Source of the DNA: Bacteroidales bacterium
GTDB taxonomy: Bacteria; Bacteroidota; Bacteroidia; Bacteroidales; UBA932
Assembly: GCA_017934185.1 (NCBI GenBank)
Contig: JAGBJY010000053.1
Coordinates: forward strand, 1-40,605
Length of the DNA: 40,605 nt
Reading direction: 5' to 3'
In this document: piece after piece, positions 9,252 to 20,567 of the stretch
How positions within the stretch are numbered: the stretch's first letter is position 1
How the letters are laid out: every line of letters starts with the position of its first letter
The notes under the pieces: model-generated
Told to the model about the DNA's origin: nothing
Seen by the model: only the letters and a program-made list of their open reading frames with translations
Database searches by the model: none
Position numbers and translations under genes: made by a program

Positions 9252-11143
<1,892 letters not shown>

Positions 11144-11173: not shown

Positions 11174-11219
11174 GATTCCCGATCAGGTCGGGAATGACGC
11201 CGATCAGGTCGGGAATGAC
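11174..11219. repeat. tandem short palindromic repeats, 5' side of groES
   Basis: The first copy contains the perfect dyad ATTCCCGA-TCAGG-TCGGGAAT (11175-11195). The second (11199-11219) repeats CCGATCAGGTCGGGAATGAC with a truncated left arm. Read on the minus strand the unit begins GTCATTCCCGACCTGATCGG, a GTCA-palindrome-TCTC architecture shared with the copy after groEL and with two GC-richer copies inside pbpC. Confidence 0.8.
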
Positions 11220-16372: not shown

Positions 16373-18664
16373 ATGCTGCGCACGGTTCGGGGGGCTTTTT
16401 GTGCTCAGATTCGCTCTTCGCGCACGAATTACAGCCATTTCGTGCGCGGAGGGTCTGGAAACCAGGGTCCGAGCACGGAAAGTGGGGGTAATGGTGCCCG
16501 AACCTCTTTTCCGCGCACGGTTTGGGGGCTAATTGTGCTCGGTGCCGAATGCGTTCTGCTGCTGGCCTGGGTGTTCTGCGTGCCAAGGGAGCTGTTCAAG
16601 GGCGTCCCCTACGCTACCGTAGTGGAAAGCGCCGAGGGAGAGCTCCTGGGGGCGCGCATTGCCGATGACGGGCAGTGGCGTTTTCCGCCTTGCGACACGG
16701 TGCCGGAGCGTTTTGCCACCGCCCTGGTGCAGTTTGAAGACCGGCAGTTCTGGTGGCATCCGGGCGTGAATCCCGTGGCGCTGGGGCGGGCGGCCGTGCA
16801 GAATGCCCGGGCCGGCCATGTGGTGAGCGGCGGCAGCACCCTCACCATGCAGGTAATCCGCCTTTCCCGCGGGAAGGAGCGCACCCTATGGCAAAAGCTC
16901 ATCGAGGCCGTGCAGGCCACTTCCCTGCAGCTGCGCACCCCCAAGCGCCGGATTCTGGCGCTCTACGCCTCCCACGCGCCCTTCGGCGGCAATGTAGTGG
17001 GGCTGGAGGCTGCCGCATGGCGCTATTTCGGCCGGCCACCCTCAGAACTGTCCTGGGCTGAGGCCGCCACTTTGGCCGTGCTGCCCAATGCCCCGGCGTC
17101 CATCCACCTGGCCCGCGGCCGGGAGGAATTGCTGGCCAAGCGCAACCGCCTGCTGAGCCGCCTCCTGGAGCATGGGGACATAGACCCGGAAACCTACGCT
17201 GCCGCACTGGAAGAGCCCCTGCCGGCCGAACCCCTGCCCCTCCCCTCCTGGGCTTACCACTATGTAGAAGCCGCGCCCAAGGGGCAGCGCAGCCGCACCG
17301 GCATCCGATTTCCGCTGCAAAAAGCCGTGGAAAATTTGGCCGGGCGACGCTCCGACGAACTGGCGGCCGAAGGCATCGCAGACCTTGCCGTAGTGGTGAT
17401 GGACAACCGCTCCGGAGCAGTGGTTGCCTATGTGGGGAACGCTTCCATCGGCCGGAAACGGCCCGGCGTGCAGGTGGACATTGCCCACTCCCCGCGCTCT
17501 ACGGGCAGCATCCTCAAGCCTTTTCTCTACGAGGCCGCCCTGGAAGAGGGCGTGATTCTGCCGCGGACCCTGCTGCCGGACGTGCCGGTGAACCTGGGCG
17601 GATTTGCCCCGCAGAACTTTGACCGGCAGTTCTATGGCGCGGTAGCCGCCGACGAAGCCCTTTCCCGCAGCCTGAACGTGCCGGCCGTGTTCCTCCTGCG
17701 GCGCTACGGCGTGCCCAAATTCCACGCCCTGCTCCAGCATCGCTACGGGCTCACCACCCTCACCCGCTCTTCCGAAACCTACGGCCTGTCGCTCATCCTC
17801 GGCGGCGGGGAAGGCCGGCTGGACGAAATCACCGCGGCCTATGCACAAATGGCGCGCGCCGTCACCCCCGGCACCGACCGGGGGTCTCTTGCCACTTGGT
17901 ACACCCTGGAGGCCCTGAAGGAGGTGAACCGCCCCGACGAACTGGACTGGCGCCTCATCGGCTCCGTGCGCAAAGCCGCCTGGAAAACCGGCACCAGCTA
18001 CGGCTTCCGCGACGCCTGGGCCGTGGGCATGACGCCCCGCTGGACCATCGGCGTGTGGGCGGGGAATGCCGAAGGGCAGGGCGTGCCGGGGCTTGTAGGC
18101 GCCCGAACCGCCGGGCCTGTGCTGTTTGACGTGCTGAACCTGCTACCGGAGGATGAGGGCTGGTTCGTCACCCCCGGCCCCGACCGGGGGTCTGTATGGG
18201 CCCAAGTCTGCCGGCAGTCGGGCTTCCTGGCGGGCCCTGAGTGTGAGGAGCCGGAGGACCTCCTCATTCCATCGGCCGGGCTGGAGAGCGAACCCTGTCC
18301 CTACCACCGCGGCGGCATCTTCACACTGCCGCCGGCCATGGAGTGGTACTACAAGCCCCATCATCCGGAGTACAACGGTGCGCCCAGAGGGACAGCGAAG
18401 CGTAAGGAACTGGAATTCATCTACCCCAGCTGGGGCACCACCCTCACCCTGCCGCGGCAGATGGACGGCGCGGTGGAGGGCGCTGTGTTCCGCGTGGCGC
18501 ACCACCGGACCGACGCCCGCCTGTGGTGGCACCTGGACGGCGAATATCTGGGCGAAACCCGCTTCCAGCACGAACTCCGCCTGGCCCCCGCCCCCGGAAA
18601 ACACTTCCTCACCGTGGTGGACGAGGACGGCAACAGCGCCAGCGTGGCGTTCAATGTAAAATAG
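16373..18664 (+). CDS. pbpC: penicillin-binding protein 1C, bifunctional transglycosylase/transpeptidase
   Basis: This 763-residue class A PBP polymerises and crosslinks peptidoglycan at the outer face of the inner membrane. The transmembrane helix is at about residues 51-70. The GT51 domain shows QFEDRQFWWHPG with catalytic E122 and GGSTLTMQVIRL. The transpeptidase has STGSILKP (S379, K382), SLN (S433-N435) and KTGTS (K538). A C-terminal BiPBP_C domain spans about residues 680-763. Residues 1-57 are encoded by a hairpin-rich repeat cassette and are absent from typical PBP1C. An in-frame GTG at 16535 (residue 55) is the only later start before the helix, but it would leave no positively charged N-terminus. 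Two 28-bp palindromic repeats lie in frame at 17861 and 18167. The gene is coupled to A2M. Confidence 0.93.
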   Translation: MLRTVRGAFCAQIRSSRTNYSHFVRGGSGNQGPSTESGGNGARTSFPRTVWGLIVLGAECVLLLAWVFCVPRELFKGVPYATVVESAEGELLGARIADDGQWRFPPCDTVPERFATALVQFEDRQFWWHPGVNPVALGRAAVQNARAGHVVSGGSTLTMQVIRLSRGKERTLWQKLIEAVQATSLQLRTPKRRILALYASHAPFGGNVVGLEAAAWRYFGRPPSELSWAEAATLAVLPNAPASIHLARGREELLAKRNRLLSRLLEHGDIDPETYAAALEEPLPAEPLPLPSWAYHYVEAAPKGQRSRTGIRFPLQKAVENLAGRRSDELAAEGIADLAVVVMDNRSGAVVAYVGNASIGRKRPGVQVDIAHSPRSTGSILKPFLYEAALEEGVILPRTLLPDVPVNLGGFAPQNFDRQFYGAVAADEALSRSLNVPAVFLLRRYGVPKFHALLQHRYGLTTLTRSSETYGLSLILGGGEGRLDEITAAYAQMARAVTPGTDRGSLATWYTLEALKEVNRPDELDWRLIGSVRKAAWKTGTSYGFRDAWAVGMTPRWTIGVWAGNAEGQGVPGLVGARTAGPVLFDVLNLLPEDEGWFVTPGPDRGSVWAQVCRQSGFLAGPECEEPEDLLIPSAGLESEPCPYHRGGIFTLPPAMEWYYKPHHPEYNGAPRGTAKRKELEFIYPSWGTTLTLPRQMDGAVEGAVFRVAHHRTDARLWWHLDGEYLGETRFQHELRLAPAPGKHFLTVVDEDGNSASVAFNVK
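16378..16542 (+). repeat. hairpin-rich repeat cassette at the 5' end of pbpC
   Basis: Two near-identical words bracket this segment: copy A at 16378-16408 and copy B at 16513-16542, both reading GCGCACGGTT, C or T, a G run, CT, then TTGTGCTC. They differ by one G and a few bases. Between them lies a perfect 10-bp hairpin (CGCGCACGAA 16419-16428, TTCGTGCGCG 16439-16448) and a second imperfect hairpin (GTGCGCGGA...TCCGAGCAC). The reading frame stays open throughout, so the cassette encodes pbpC residues 3-57. Confidence 0.75.
17861..17888 (+). repeat. in-frame palindromic repeat in pbpC, copy 1
   Basis: The unit runs GTCACCCCCGGC, then ACCGACCGGGGGTCTC, and contains the dyad ACCCCCGG / CCGGGGGT. 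It encodes VTPGTDRGSL and differs from copy 2 at only 2 of 28 positions. It falls after AAYAQMARA, in a loop of variable length in PBP1C proteins. Confidence 0.8.
18167..18194 (+). repeat. in-frame palindromic repeat in pbpC, copy 2
   Basis: The unit runs GTCACCCCCGGC, then CCCGACCGGGGGTCTG, and is read in the same frame as copy 1 to give VTPGPDRGSV. It sits after the GWF that precedes the VCRQSG segment, outside the catalytic motifs. Confidence 0.8.
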
Positions 18665-18698: not shown

Positions 18699-20567
18699 CT
18701 ACTGCGGAGGGGTTACAATCCAGTTGGTTGGGATAGCGACAACAAGGCTATTCCCGCGGGGATATGTAGTATTTGGATTCCTGACGAACTCACAACTGCT
18801 TGTATTGGGCACATCATCCAGCCACTTGTTAAAGACTGACCACGCTGAGACCACGGTCCACTGCCCTAATTTATCGGGAGAAGGCGCGGCAGAGTCATCA
18901 TAGACCTTTGTGTCCGGATTCGTTCTGCTATTCATCTGCTCCTGAGACACTTCAAGGAGACATTTCACATATCCAATGGCTTTGCAATGACGGAATATGG
19001 AAAAGTAGCATCCGGCAGCAGGCTCCCGAGCCAGAAGGTCGGGCCCCGCTTTAAGCTTGTAGCAATTGAAAAACATGTTCATATAGCAGCAAGGAGCCAG
19101 AACCGTTGCAGGCAGAAGATCTGCGGGCACCGTTTCAAGATTTTGGCAGTCATAGAACATTCTGCGATAACAGGCCAGAGCCAACCCGGTCTTCGGCAAA
19201 AATCCATCCGGAACAGTCAACAGGCCCTTACAGCCGTAGAACATGGAATCGTAGCAGCGTTCAGTAAGGGGGGCGTCTCCCAGCACAAGGTTATCCAGTT
19301 TGGTTATTCCTGTGCATCCCTGGAACATCTCGAAATAGCAGCCTGTACTCAGGGTGGTTGCCGACAATTTCAGTGTTTTCCCGGGGTCCTCTGACAGCAG
19401 GAGCCAGGATGCGTTGTAAAAAGCCCTTTGGAAGGCAAAATCGGCCTCAATCACCTTCTTGGCCTTGTACTTCTCGTTGCACATGAGGAACATAAGGTCA
19501 CCGTAGACATAACTGGCCTTGTTCACGGAGAGGAGGCCGCTGCTGTTTCCCGTATGCTGATAAGTGGTTCCCTTGCCACGGAAATAGACTTTGTCCCCGG
19601 CACTGGTGAGCGTTATCTTCCTTTCATAGTTTTTCCAGTCATACCCGTCCAGACTGTACTGGATGCCGTTGTTGGTGGCCTTATTGAAGGTAACCTCGGT
19701 AGAGGGCTGAGTGGCTTCCACCGTCAGGTAATCCTGCATAAAAGTAGCGCGCTGGAAAGTATAGTAGGAACTGGCCGCCAGCGTATTGTCGTTCATCCTC
19801 AGAACCAGATCTTCTTCCTCTCCGTCTTTCCTGAGAACCAAACCGGCGCCGCTTAAAGCAGTATTTCCGGCAAAACCTGCCACCCATGAGGCTTCAATGC
19901 CCCCATCCTCCTCTTCCCGGGTTTCAAAAGAACAGGAATACAACTCTGTTCGCGCCTCGGCATTGTCATACGCATTGTAAAGTGTTGCCCTGTAGCGGGT
20001 CCCGGACTCCACCTGGTCCTCATCAAATTGAAAACTGAAAACCAGGAAAGAAGATTGCTGGCTCAAGGTAAAGTGCAAATCCCCAAATTTTCCGGAAGCG
20101 GTAAAATGGCTCAAACTACGCACCGCTTCCTTCAGCGATGTTGCCTTTTTCCCGCCATAGTCTATACCCGACAACTTTCCGCCCTCAGAAACGTGAATCT
20201 CATCGTCCCGCCCTACAAGCACCAGCGATACTCCGGTAGCGGCCACCGGTGAAAAATCCTCGGCGCACGTAAGCTCTCCCTCAAAGAAGGCCAGGGTTTT
20301 ACCGGCATCGCTCGCCTGCGAAAGGGAAAGGAAACCATACATCTCGCCTCCCTCGCTCTCCAGGTAAATCTGGTCTCCGGCCTCAAATACATACTTCAGA
20401 TTATCATCAACCGTAGCCCGGGTACCGGCATCGGCCTCAACCGTGGCCCGATAATGCACGGTTTTCTGAAGGGGCGCAGGTTCCACCACTCCCGGTTCAG
20501 GCTCCTTGGCGCAAGATACCACAAGCAGCACAAAGGGCAAGATATATTTGAGTACAGCTTTCATCAT
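18699..20567 (-). CDS. fimbrial-operon lipoprotein with BspA-like CY..MF repeats
   Basis: This 622-residue lipoprotein has a lipobox ending at C19 (LLVVSC). The N-terminal half begins VHYRATVEADAGTRATVDD, typical of fimbrillin-like proteins of Bacteroidales. The C-terminal half contains five repeats starting at C410, C438, C466, C494 and C520 with the pattern CY-x2-MF-x2-C and a mostly 28-residue period, often followed by VPxxLLPxT. This resembles the leucine-rich, BspA-like surface repeats used in adhesion. It is the last gene of the nine-gene fimbrial operon and overlaps the preceding gene by 4 nt (ATGA; a second ATG in frame follows directly). A likely role is a surface-exposed tip or ligand-binding component; that is inference. 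Confidence 0.75.
   Translation of the reverse strand: MMKAVLKYILPFVLLVVSCAKEPEPGVVEPAPLQKTVHYRATVEADAGTRATVDDNLKYVFEAGDQIYLESEGGEMYGFLSLSQASDAGKTLAFFEGELTCAEDFSPVAATGVSLVLVGRDDEIHVSEGGKLSGIDYGGKKATSLKEAVRSLSHFTASGKFGDLHFTLSQQSSFLVFSFQFDEDQVESGTRYRATLYNAYDNAEARTELYSCSFETREEEDGGIEASWVAGFAGNTALSGAGLVLRKDGEEEDLVLRMNDNTLAASSYYTFQRATFMQDYLTVEATQPSTEVTFNKATNNGIQYSLDGYDWKNYERKITLTSAGDKVYFRGKGTTYQHTGNSSGLLSVNKASYVYGDLMFLMCNEKYKAKKVIEADFAFQRAFYNASWLLLSEDPGKTLKLSATTLSTGCYFEMFQGCTGITKLDNLVLGDAPLTERCYDSMFYGCKGLLTVPDGFLPKTGLALACYRRMFYDCQNLETVPADLLPATVLAPCCYMNMFFNCYKLKAGPDLLAREPAAGCYFSIFRHCKAIGYVKCLLEVSQEQMNSRTNPDTKVYDDSAAPSPDKLGQWTVVSAWSVFNKWLDDVPNTSSCEFVRNPNTTYPRGNSLVVAIPTNWIVTPPQ

Follow-up and report, generated by a model that had tools for sequence, protein, structure and literature searches.

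Rickettsia offers the best-known cases of palindromes that are translated as part of a protein; in that genus they have been called selfish DNA in protein genes. The 40,605-nucleotide stretch of Bacteroidales DNA analysed here (the window) carries two such palindromes in a single gene, which raises the question of how they came to lie there and whether they belong to an element that spreads. In a pattern search of the window, for which shuffled sequences gave an expectation of 0 matches, they were recovered at 17861-17886 and 18167-18192 of the forward strand. The features concerned are as follows.

16373..18664 (+): gene for a PBP1C-like bifunctional penicillin-binding protein (Pfam Transgly, Transpeptidase and BiPBP_C), the carrier of both repeats
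17861..17887 (+): repeat copy 1, the 26-nt form plus T, with a GTC tag, an 8-bp stem and a 6-nt loop
18167..18193 (+): repeat copy 2, the 26-nt form plus T, with the CC/GG stem type of copy 1
11174..11198 (-): repeat of the 25-nt form that lies between genes, in no long coding frame
11199..11219 (-): a further, truncated copy immediately beside the intergenic one (from the sequence; direct repeat family D3)
9252-10874: Cpn60 chaperonin gene, neighbour of the intergenic palindrome

An initial annotation made from the sequence alone had described two in-frame palindromes 306 bp apart in pbpC, and both were present with the predicted peptides: copy 1 encodes VTPGTDRGS (residues 497-505) and copy 2 encodes VTPGPDRGS (residues 599-607) in the same frame. 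Compared as 28-mers (17860-17887 and 18166-18193, spacing 306 bp), the copies differ by one mismatch and are 27/28 identical, not 26/28 as first stated. The suggestion that both sites lie where loop length varies agreed with the lengths in relatives and with an AlphaFold model of the protein (31 sequences, mean pLDDT 81.5), in which insert 1 is predicted to be exactly the coil 497-505, with one helix (483-496) before it and another (506-514) after it, and insert 2 to lie in a coil ending at the start of strand 607-613. The related extragenic palindrome said to accompany groESL was found at 11174-11198 (-), adjacent to the Cpn60 gene. An Rfam search of the window returned only a tRNA, and no Rfam family matched the repeats. 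Of 101 genomes of the genus, 100 had a match to the PBP1C-like protein, paralogs counted in; in one relative (L140) PBP1C is 55% identical. Beside the PBP1C gene, a 622-amino-acid ORF at 18699-20567 (-) had no Pfam match at E <= 1e-10.

The genome from which the window comes (G000; 2.13 Mb in 62 contigs, 85.8% complete) was searched with the pattern GTCANNCCCG-N2-20-CGGGNNTC, using the reversed pattern as a control. This genome-wide consensus search, which the initial annotation had called for, gave 53 matches, both intergenic and in frame within genes, against 0 for the reversed control, and the two PBP1C copies are ordinary members of this dispersed family of hairpin repeats. The copies measured 26 nt (27/53), 25 nt (25/53) or 24 nt (1/53), with loops of 6 nt (27/53), 5 nt (25/53) or 4 nt (1/53). 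The base preceding GTC, which is itself fixed by the search pattern, was C in 36 copies, T in 12, G in 3 and A in 2 (n = 53). Eight contiguous stem pairs, part of them fixed by the pattern, were intact in 50/53, and the two variable stem bases were complementary in 49/53. The tail was C followed by T in 44/53 copies, so that CT stands beside the stem, and in all five close opposed pairs (5/5) the GTC tags lay inside.

Within the genus, 73 of 101 genomes had at least one match, 30/101 had at least 10 and 28/101 had none, with copy numbers of 0 to 81 per genome; since the reversed control gave up to 2 matches per genus genome, single matches may be due to chance. In a sample of 149 genomes of the order, nearly all of them belonging to other families, 8 matched, and only the window's own genome had many (52); others included G267 with 3 copies and G341 with 2. 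This sample contained one other genome of the window's genus, with zero matches. Separately, two genomes of the order's family f22 (G221 and G335) contained repeats of the GTCATCCCCGCGAAAGCGGGGATC type, with 11 and 19 matches; in the window's genome the pattern search that recovered them gave a single match, which had a different sequence.

To assign copies to genes we scored the codon usage of their flanks with thresholds of our own, calling a copy genic if both flanks were coding-like and edge if one side was strongly coding-like. In the own genome, 29/53 copies were genic, 12/53 edge and 12/53 apparently intergenic. The 29 genic copies fell into 23 ORFs, each with a Pfam family over the cut-off, and the short gene names used here are our reading of the Pfam domains. 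The hosts include ATP synthase gamma (AtpG), IleS, riboflavin kinase, GcpE, a MutY-like glycosylase, LpxK, DNA polymerase I (PolA), UvrD/PcrA, MutL, a tRNA methyltransferase-like protein, an amino-acid kinase with two sites and an alpha-2-macroglobulin with two facing pairs, among others; we take some of these genes to be essential. By our reading of the spans, a single Pfam match clearly crosses the insert in 8/23 ORFs, and in the remaining ORFs the insert often lies between or beside Pfam domains. The hairpin repeat adds about nine amino acids to loops of many genes and leaves the frame unbroken. The window's macroglobulin gene was considered as the empty partner of the repeat-bearing one on contig C12 and was discarded, as BLASTP gave no match between them.

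Elsewhere in the genus, the genic share among the copies examined was 5/30 in G028 (30/42 examined), 6/22 in G054 (22/81), 2/5 in G005 (5/17) and 0/35 in G039 (35/52). Because this share is lower than in the own genome, intragenic life is a trait of some lineages and not of the repeat as such.

Genic copies in the own genome kept 8 bp of stem in 27/29 cases and complementary variable pairs in 26/29. Four different frames were used within genes for each length form, and these were not used equally. Among 42 genic copies from four genomes, frame +0 (V-x-P-G-x-D-R-x-S) accounted for 15/20 copies of 26 nt (p = 1.8e-7) and frame -1 (I/M-P-G/D-Q-x-G-x-D) for 15/22 copies of 25 nt (p = 2.5e-5), under a null in which all open frames are equally used (one fifth for the 26-nt form, one quarter for the 25-nt form). 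When the own genome was taken alone and each ORF contributed a single copy, the 26-nt bias held (9/13, p = 0.0002) and the 25-nt bias was not significant (4/10, p = 0.22). The two forms tend toward opposite orientations in genes, and in each phase the tag forms a whole codon. We read this phase bias as sorting by protein tolerance.

Orthologs of three host genes (IleS, GcpE and the methyltransferase) were compared in relatives, using for each the 30 best loci from 200 genomes searched. In IleS, 24 of these 30 best rows lacked a recognised repeat, and 23/24 had a loop of 4-5 residues (for example VPGAE or TGREE), L218 having nine. Three filled rows carried a CGTC-type repeat and three another repeat-like peptide, namely CHSERSEE (L210, L214) or STSLEMT (L231). 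A tree of the same 30 rows calculated without the loop required at least 6 changes of repeat state, and every filled row had an empty sister. The own IleS, with a loop of 11 residues vs 5 in its sister, pairs with the empty L203 (89% identical, support 87); the other filled/empty pairs were L209/L213 (support 87), L215/L217 (100), L210/L212 (98), L214/L211 (94) and L231/L229 (98). In the one solved structure aligned, IleRS 8c8u, 8 residues are absent at the insert. The right border of the insert merged into similar host DNA (GAATC) in some rows.

The GcpE and methyltransferase loops resembled that of IleS, with still more kinds of insert. After the DIY motif, the TrmB-like methyltransferase loop ranged from 11 to 93 residues in 30 rows including our own (L262-L291) and held several unrelated insert sequences. 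Empty orthologs were found for IleS, GcpE and PBP1C, and repeat positions differed between relatives. Relatives have both empty and filled sites, and insertion recurs at the same loops; their records are mostly MAGs, none near enough for a strain-level empty/filled pair. Insertion of exactly 27 nt did not hold up, since net gains varied and were not exact multiples of nine residues, and insertion therefore goes with local loss or replacement.

For PBP1C, 117 loci gave 103 distinct proteins and a 98-row tree, five rows with partial or broken frames being omitted (L148, L151, L155, L156 and L157). Repeats were labelled by peptide patterns of our own, of which a few non-family ones are doubtful (e.g. 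L062, L090). With all labels, the minimum number of changes on the tree was 9 for site 1 and 11 for site 2; with the CGTC-type family alone it was 3 and 7. CGTC-type inserts were restricted to one 42-row clade. The alignment for empty sites that the initial annotation had suggested showed different loops, most of them shorter, in those of the compared orthologs that lack the DNA repeat. None of these encoded the same peptide at both sites through unrelated codons, and the genome held many further copies. The PBP1C loops are hot spots like the IleS loop, filled by several unrelated repeats.

Several of those other repeats can be described. At PBP1C site 1 of L156, L083 and L147, repeat units encode AKS-x-LFAPG-like peptides; L083 shows GGGGCAAAA...TTTTGCCCC arms, and L156 has seven units in tandem. 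A second in-frame repeat family, TGTCATTCTGAGCGNAGCGAAGAATCT, encodes CHSERSEES and occupies sites in PBP1C (L082, L103, L091, L151), IleS (L210, L214) and GcpE (L246, L242); in GcpE of L242 the reading frame of the TGTCATTCTGAGCGNAGCGAAGAATCT repeat is a different one and gives VILSEREES, a peptide similar to the LSEREE host motif of empty relatives. PBP1C also contains in-frame tandem arrays, of GTETGSAVPERPKNTRS-like units at site 2 of L134 and of VMAGTEQP units at site 1 of L086.

The orthologs also bear on the origin of the two window copies. At site 2 of L085, L087 and L189, the peptide E-M-P-x-x-x-G-x-D...G-G-V-T-P-G-x-D-R-G-A represents a facing pair, and its right half, VTPG(P/S)DRGA, follows the facing half in DNA nearly identical to that of the window. 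Left halves persist at site 2 of L084 and L094, with scraps in L082, L103 and L093; site 1 of L082 and L103, the window's sisters, holds a different repeat. Site 2 of the window most likely preserves one half of an old facing pair, which decayed differently from lineage to lineage. The CC/GG stem common to both window copies was absent from the other 26-nt matches of the own genome. Two orthologs had intact hairpins at both loops, the window's own (CC/GG) and L086 (TGG/CCA), and site 2 of L086 also holds a TG/CA-type copy. Because the window copies share a stem unique among these 26-nt matches and both L086 sites hold TGG/CCA-type copies, site 2 was probably the source from which site 1 arose by copying or conversion. 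Other species have the site-2 sequence too, as one half of an insert made of two repeats. For these reasons the two PBP1C copies probably do not stem from separate insertion events; one copy would have been inherited and the other copied locally.

We consider it very probable, taking the explanation as a whole, that the repeats are copies of a dispersed, REP-like palindrome with a CGTC tag, which has increased in number in part of the window's genus. The unit is about 27 nt long and its GTC tag (or the complement GAC) forms a whole codon in most genic copies, so that an insert lengthens the gene by about nine codons without introducing a stop. A copy that lands in a surface loop or linker would be tolerated and persist, and other copies would presumably be purged, leaving the observed reading phases. 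Inserts would later decay by in-frame deletion or be overwritten by other repeats in the same loop. We infer that the inserts are neutral for the protein and that copying took place locally between the two PBP1C loops. We also entertain, tentatively and as something that we would not expect to hold, the idea that the loops are recurrent landing pads on which unrelated families land repeatedly, forming a genus-wide engine of loop diversification and not tolerated junk. The roughly 27-nt unit would then supply whole codons, with the persisting orientation and phase giving a turn-like peptide.

The palindromes had been proposed to be a mobile or self-spreading element. The dispersed family and the empty sites in relatives agree with part of this proposal; self-spreading is not supported in the form given, since no repeat-flanked transposase was found among the Y1_Tnp loci inspected. 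Spread presumably occurs by copying that depends on the hairpin, perhaps with a Y1 transposase acting in trans. TnpAREP enzymes are described, in the part of the source used here, as cleaving REPs in single-stranded form, at a CT next to the stem (PMC8266576), and because CT is present in 44/53 copies, a Y1 enzyme may act in trans.

It may instead be that these repeats, like GTAG REPs, are moved by a dedicated RAYT-type (Y1) transposase, encoded in the genus, an explanation that we regard as possible yet doubtful. The CT after the stem matches the TnpAREP cleavage site as given in that part of the source (PMC8266576), Y1_Tnp matches were found in 78/101 genus genomes (70 over the Pfam cut-off), and at least 10 copies were present in 27/78 genomes with Y1 vs 3/23 without (rank-sum p 0.005). 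However, the rank correlation between Y1 and copy number, which ignores completeness and kinship, was weak (rho 0.18, p 0.07), and G001 and G014, both incomplete assemblies, had 22 copies and no Y1 match. None of five Y1 loci in repeat-bearing genomes (three in the own genome, one each in G028 and G065) was flanked on both sides by the repeat; those of G028 and G065 each had one copy nearby and had been chosen for nearness. Y1 loci of G044 and G096 were also unflanked, and carry little weight since these genomes have no repeat copy. A Y1_Tnp-like ORF of the own genome (L198:1169-2137 (-)) has long palindromes on either side, at 1093-1179 and 2845-2909, which share the core ATTGCTTACTGTTTTT and are unrelated to the CGTC-type repeats.

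Somewhat less probable is that no current spread takes place, and that an ancestral insertion is now undergoing decay and exchange through old inheritance and local gene conversion only. Recognisable halves of one facing pair occur at PBP1C site 2 in several related species, both orthologs with intact hairpins at the two loops share the stem type between loops, and parsimony counts alone cannot separate gain from loss. However, each filled IleS row has an empty sister, the inserted families differ and at least 6 separate changes are needed, and copy number ranges from 0 to 81 within one genus.

REPs have been proposed to serve, among other roles, as gyrase or nucleoid sites, and the genic copies could reflect a function of this kind, as selected RNA or DNA structures such as mRNA hairpins. 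Genic copies too keep stem pairing with changes on both arms (26/29 complementary at the variable pairs), and REPs have been proposed as RNA elements in the text drawn on here (PMC3733652). We consider this explanation unlikely: repeat positions are not conserved between relatives, the pattern is missing from 28/101 genus genomes, covariation is also expected if variant elements spread by copying, and the window repeats match no Rfam family. Chance or convergence of Pro/Gly-rich turns that look palindromic in a GC-rich genome has a negligible probability, although both PBP1C sites are coil in the model and variable in length among relatives, since shuffles and the reversed pattern gave 0 vs 53 real matches and so contradict chance or low complexity as a source, the same DNA occurs between genes and in four frames per length form within them, and empty PBP1C relatives have other short loops.

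Protein-coding palindromes here show the behavior known from Rickettsia in a gut genus that is uncultured and that offers many species, sister sequences with empty sites and more than one repeat family at a single loop. Such natural replicates can be used to study the spread of the repeats, the kinds of protein site that take up nine new residues and the possible neutrality of the inserts. They also provide material for a question posed in the 2013 paper, as far as its text is used here: what moves CGTC-tagged REPs (PMC3733652). A literature search restricted to open-licence papers found no report of this case.

Among known systems, GTAG REPs and REPINs with their RAYT are similar in being short tagged hairpins, single or in opposed pairs, with CT beside the stem. 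They differ in that the tag here is GTC (as searched), no flanking RAYT was found at the Y1 loci inspected and in-frame genic copies are common in the own genome. The comparison with Rickettsia palindromic elements (RPEs) drawn in the initial annotation appears largely right, judging from in-frame copies in 23 ORFs and from empty orthologs: in both cases, palindromes lie in frame in unrelated, often conserved genes and are absent from orthologs (here IleS, GcpE and PBP1C). However, phylum and lifestyle differ, and the repeats here are about 27 bp or facing pairs vs 105-146 bp for classical RPEs as given in the portion of the source consulted (PMC2229807).

The closest relatives of the repeat are probably the CGTC-tagged REPs, which in the part of the paper used here have an unpaired CGTC (or TGTC/CCTC) tag, an 8-9 bp stem and a loop of 4-5 nt, with exceptions (Di Nocera et al. 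2013; PMC3733652). The same text reports them from five phyla, Bacteroidetes included, places intragenic copies in repair and tRNA-synthetase genes, gives no known dedicated transposase and equates Rickettsia RPE-4 and RPE-6 with CGTC-4 and CGTC-1 (PMC3733652). The view that such repeats have no precedent has to be given up, as CGTC-tagged REPs, some intragenic, are described there, and Bacteroidetes are one of the phyla from which CGTC repeats are reported (PMC3733652). Our repeats share GTC preceded by C or T (48/53), the 8-bp stem and a loop that is short; they too are numerous, form opposed pairs and occur inside genes, and no flanking transposase was found at the Y1 loci inspected. In contrast to CGTC families 1-4 as that text presents them, the tail is C then T (44/53) and not CCA-like, and tags lie inside in 5/5 pairs, where the paper has tags-outside pairs predominating and the reverse rare (PMC3733652). 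About half of the loops here are 6 nt, and more than half of the copies in the own genome are intragenic, whereas most REPs are intergenic in the paper's account (PMC3733652). By tag and stem the repeat is a member of the CGTC super-family, and we class it as a variant outside the four families because it departs from them in its tail, in how its pairs are oriented and in its strong intragenic share.
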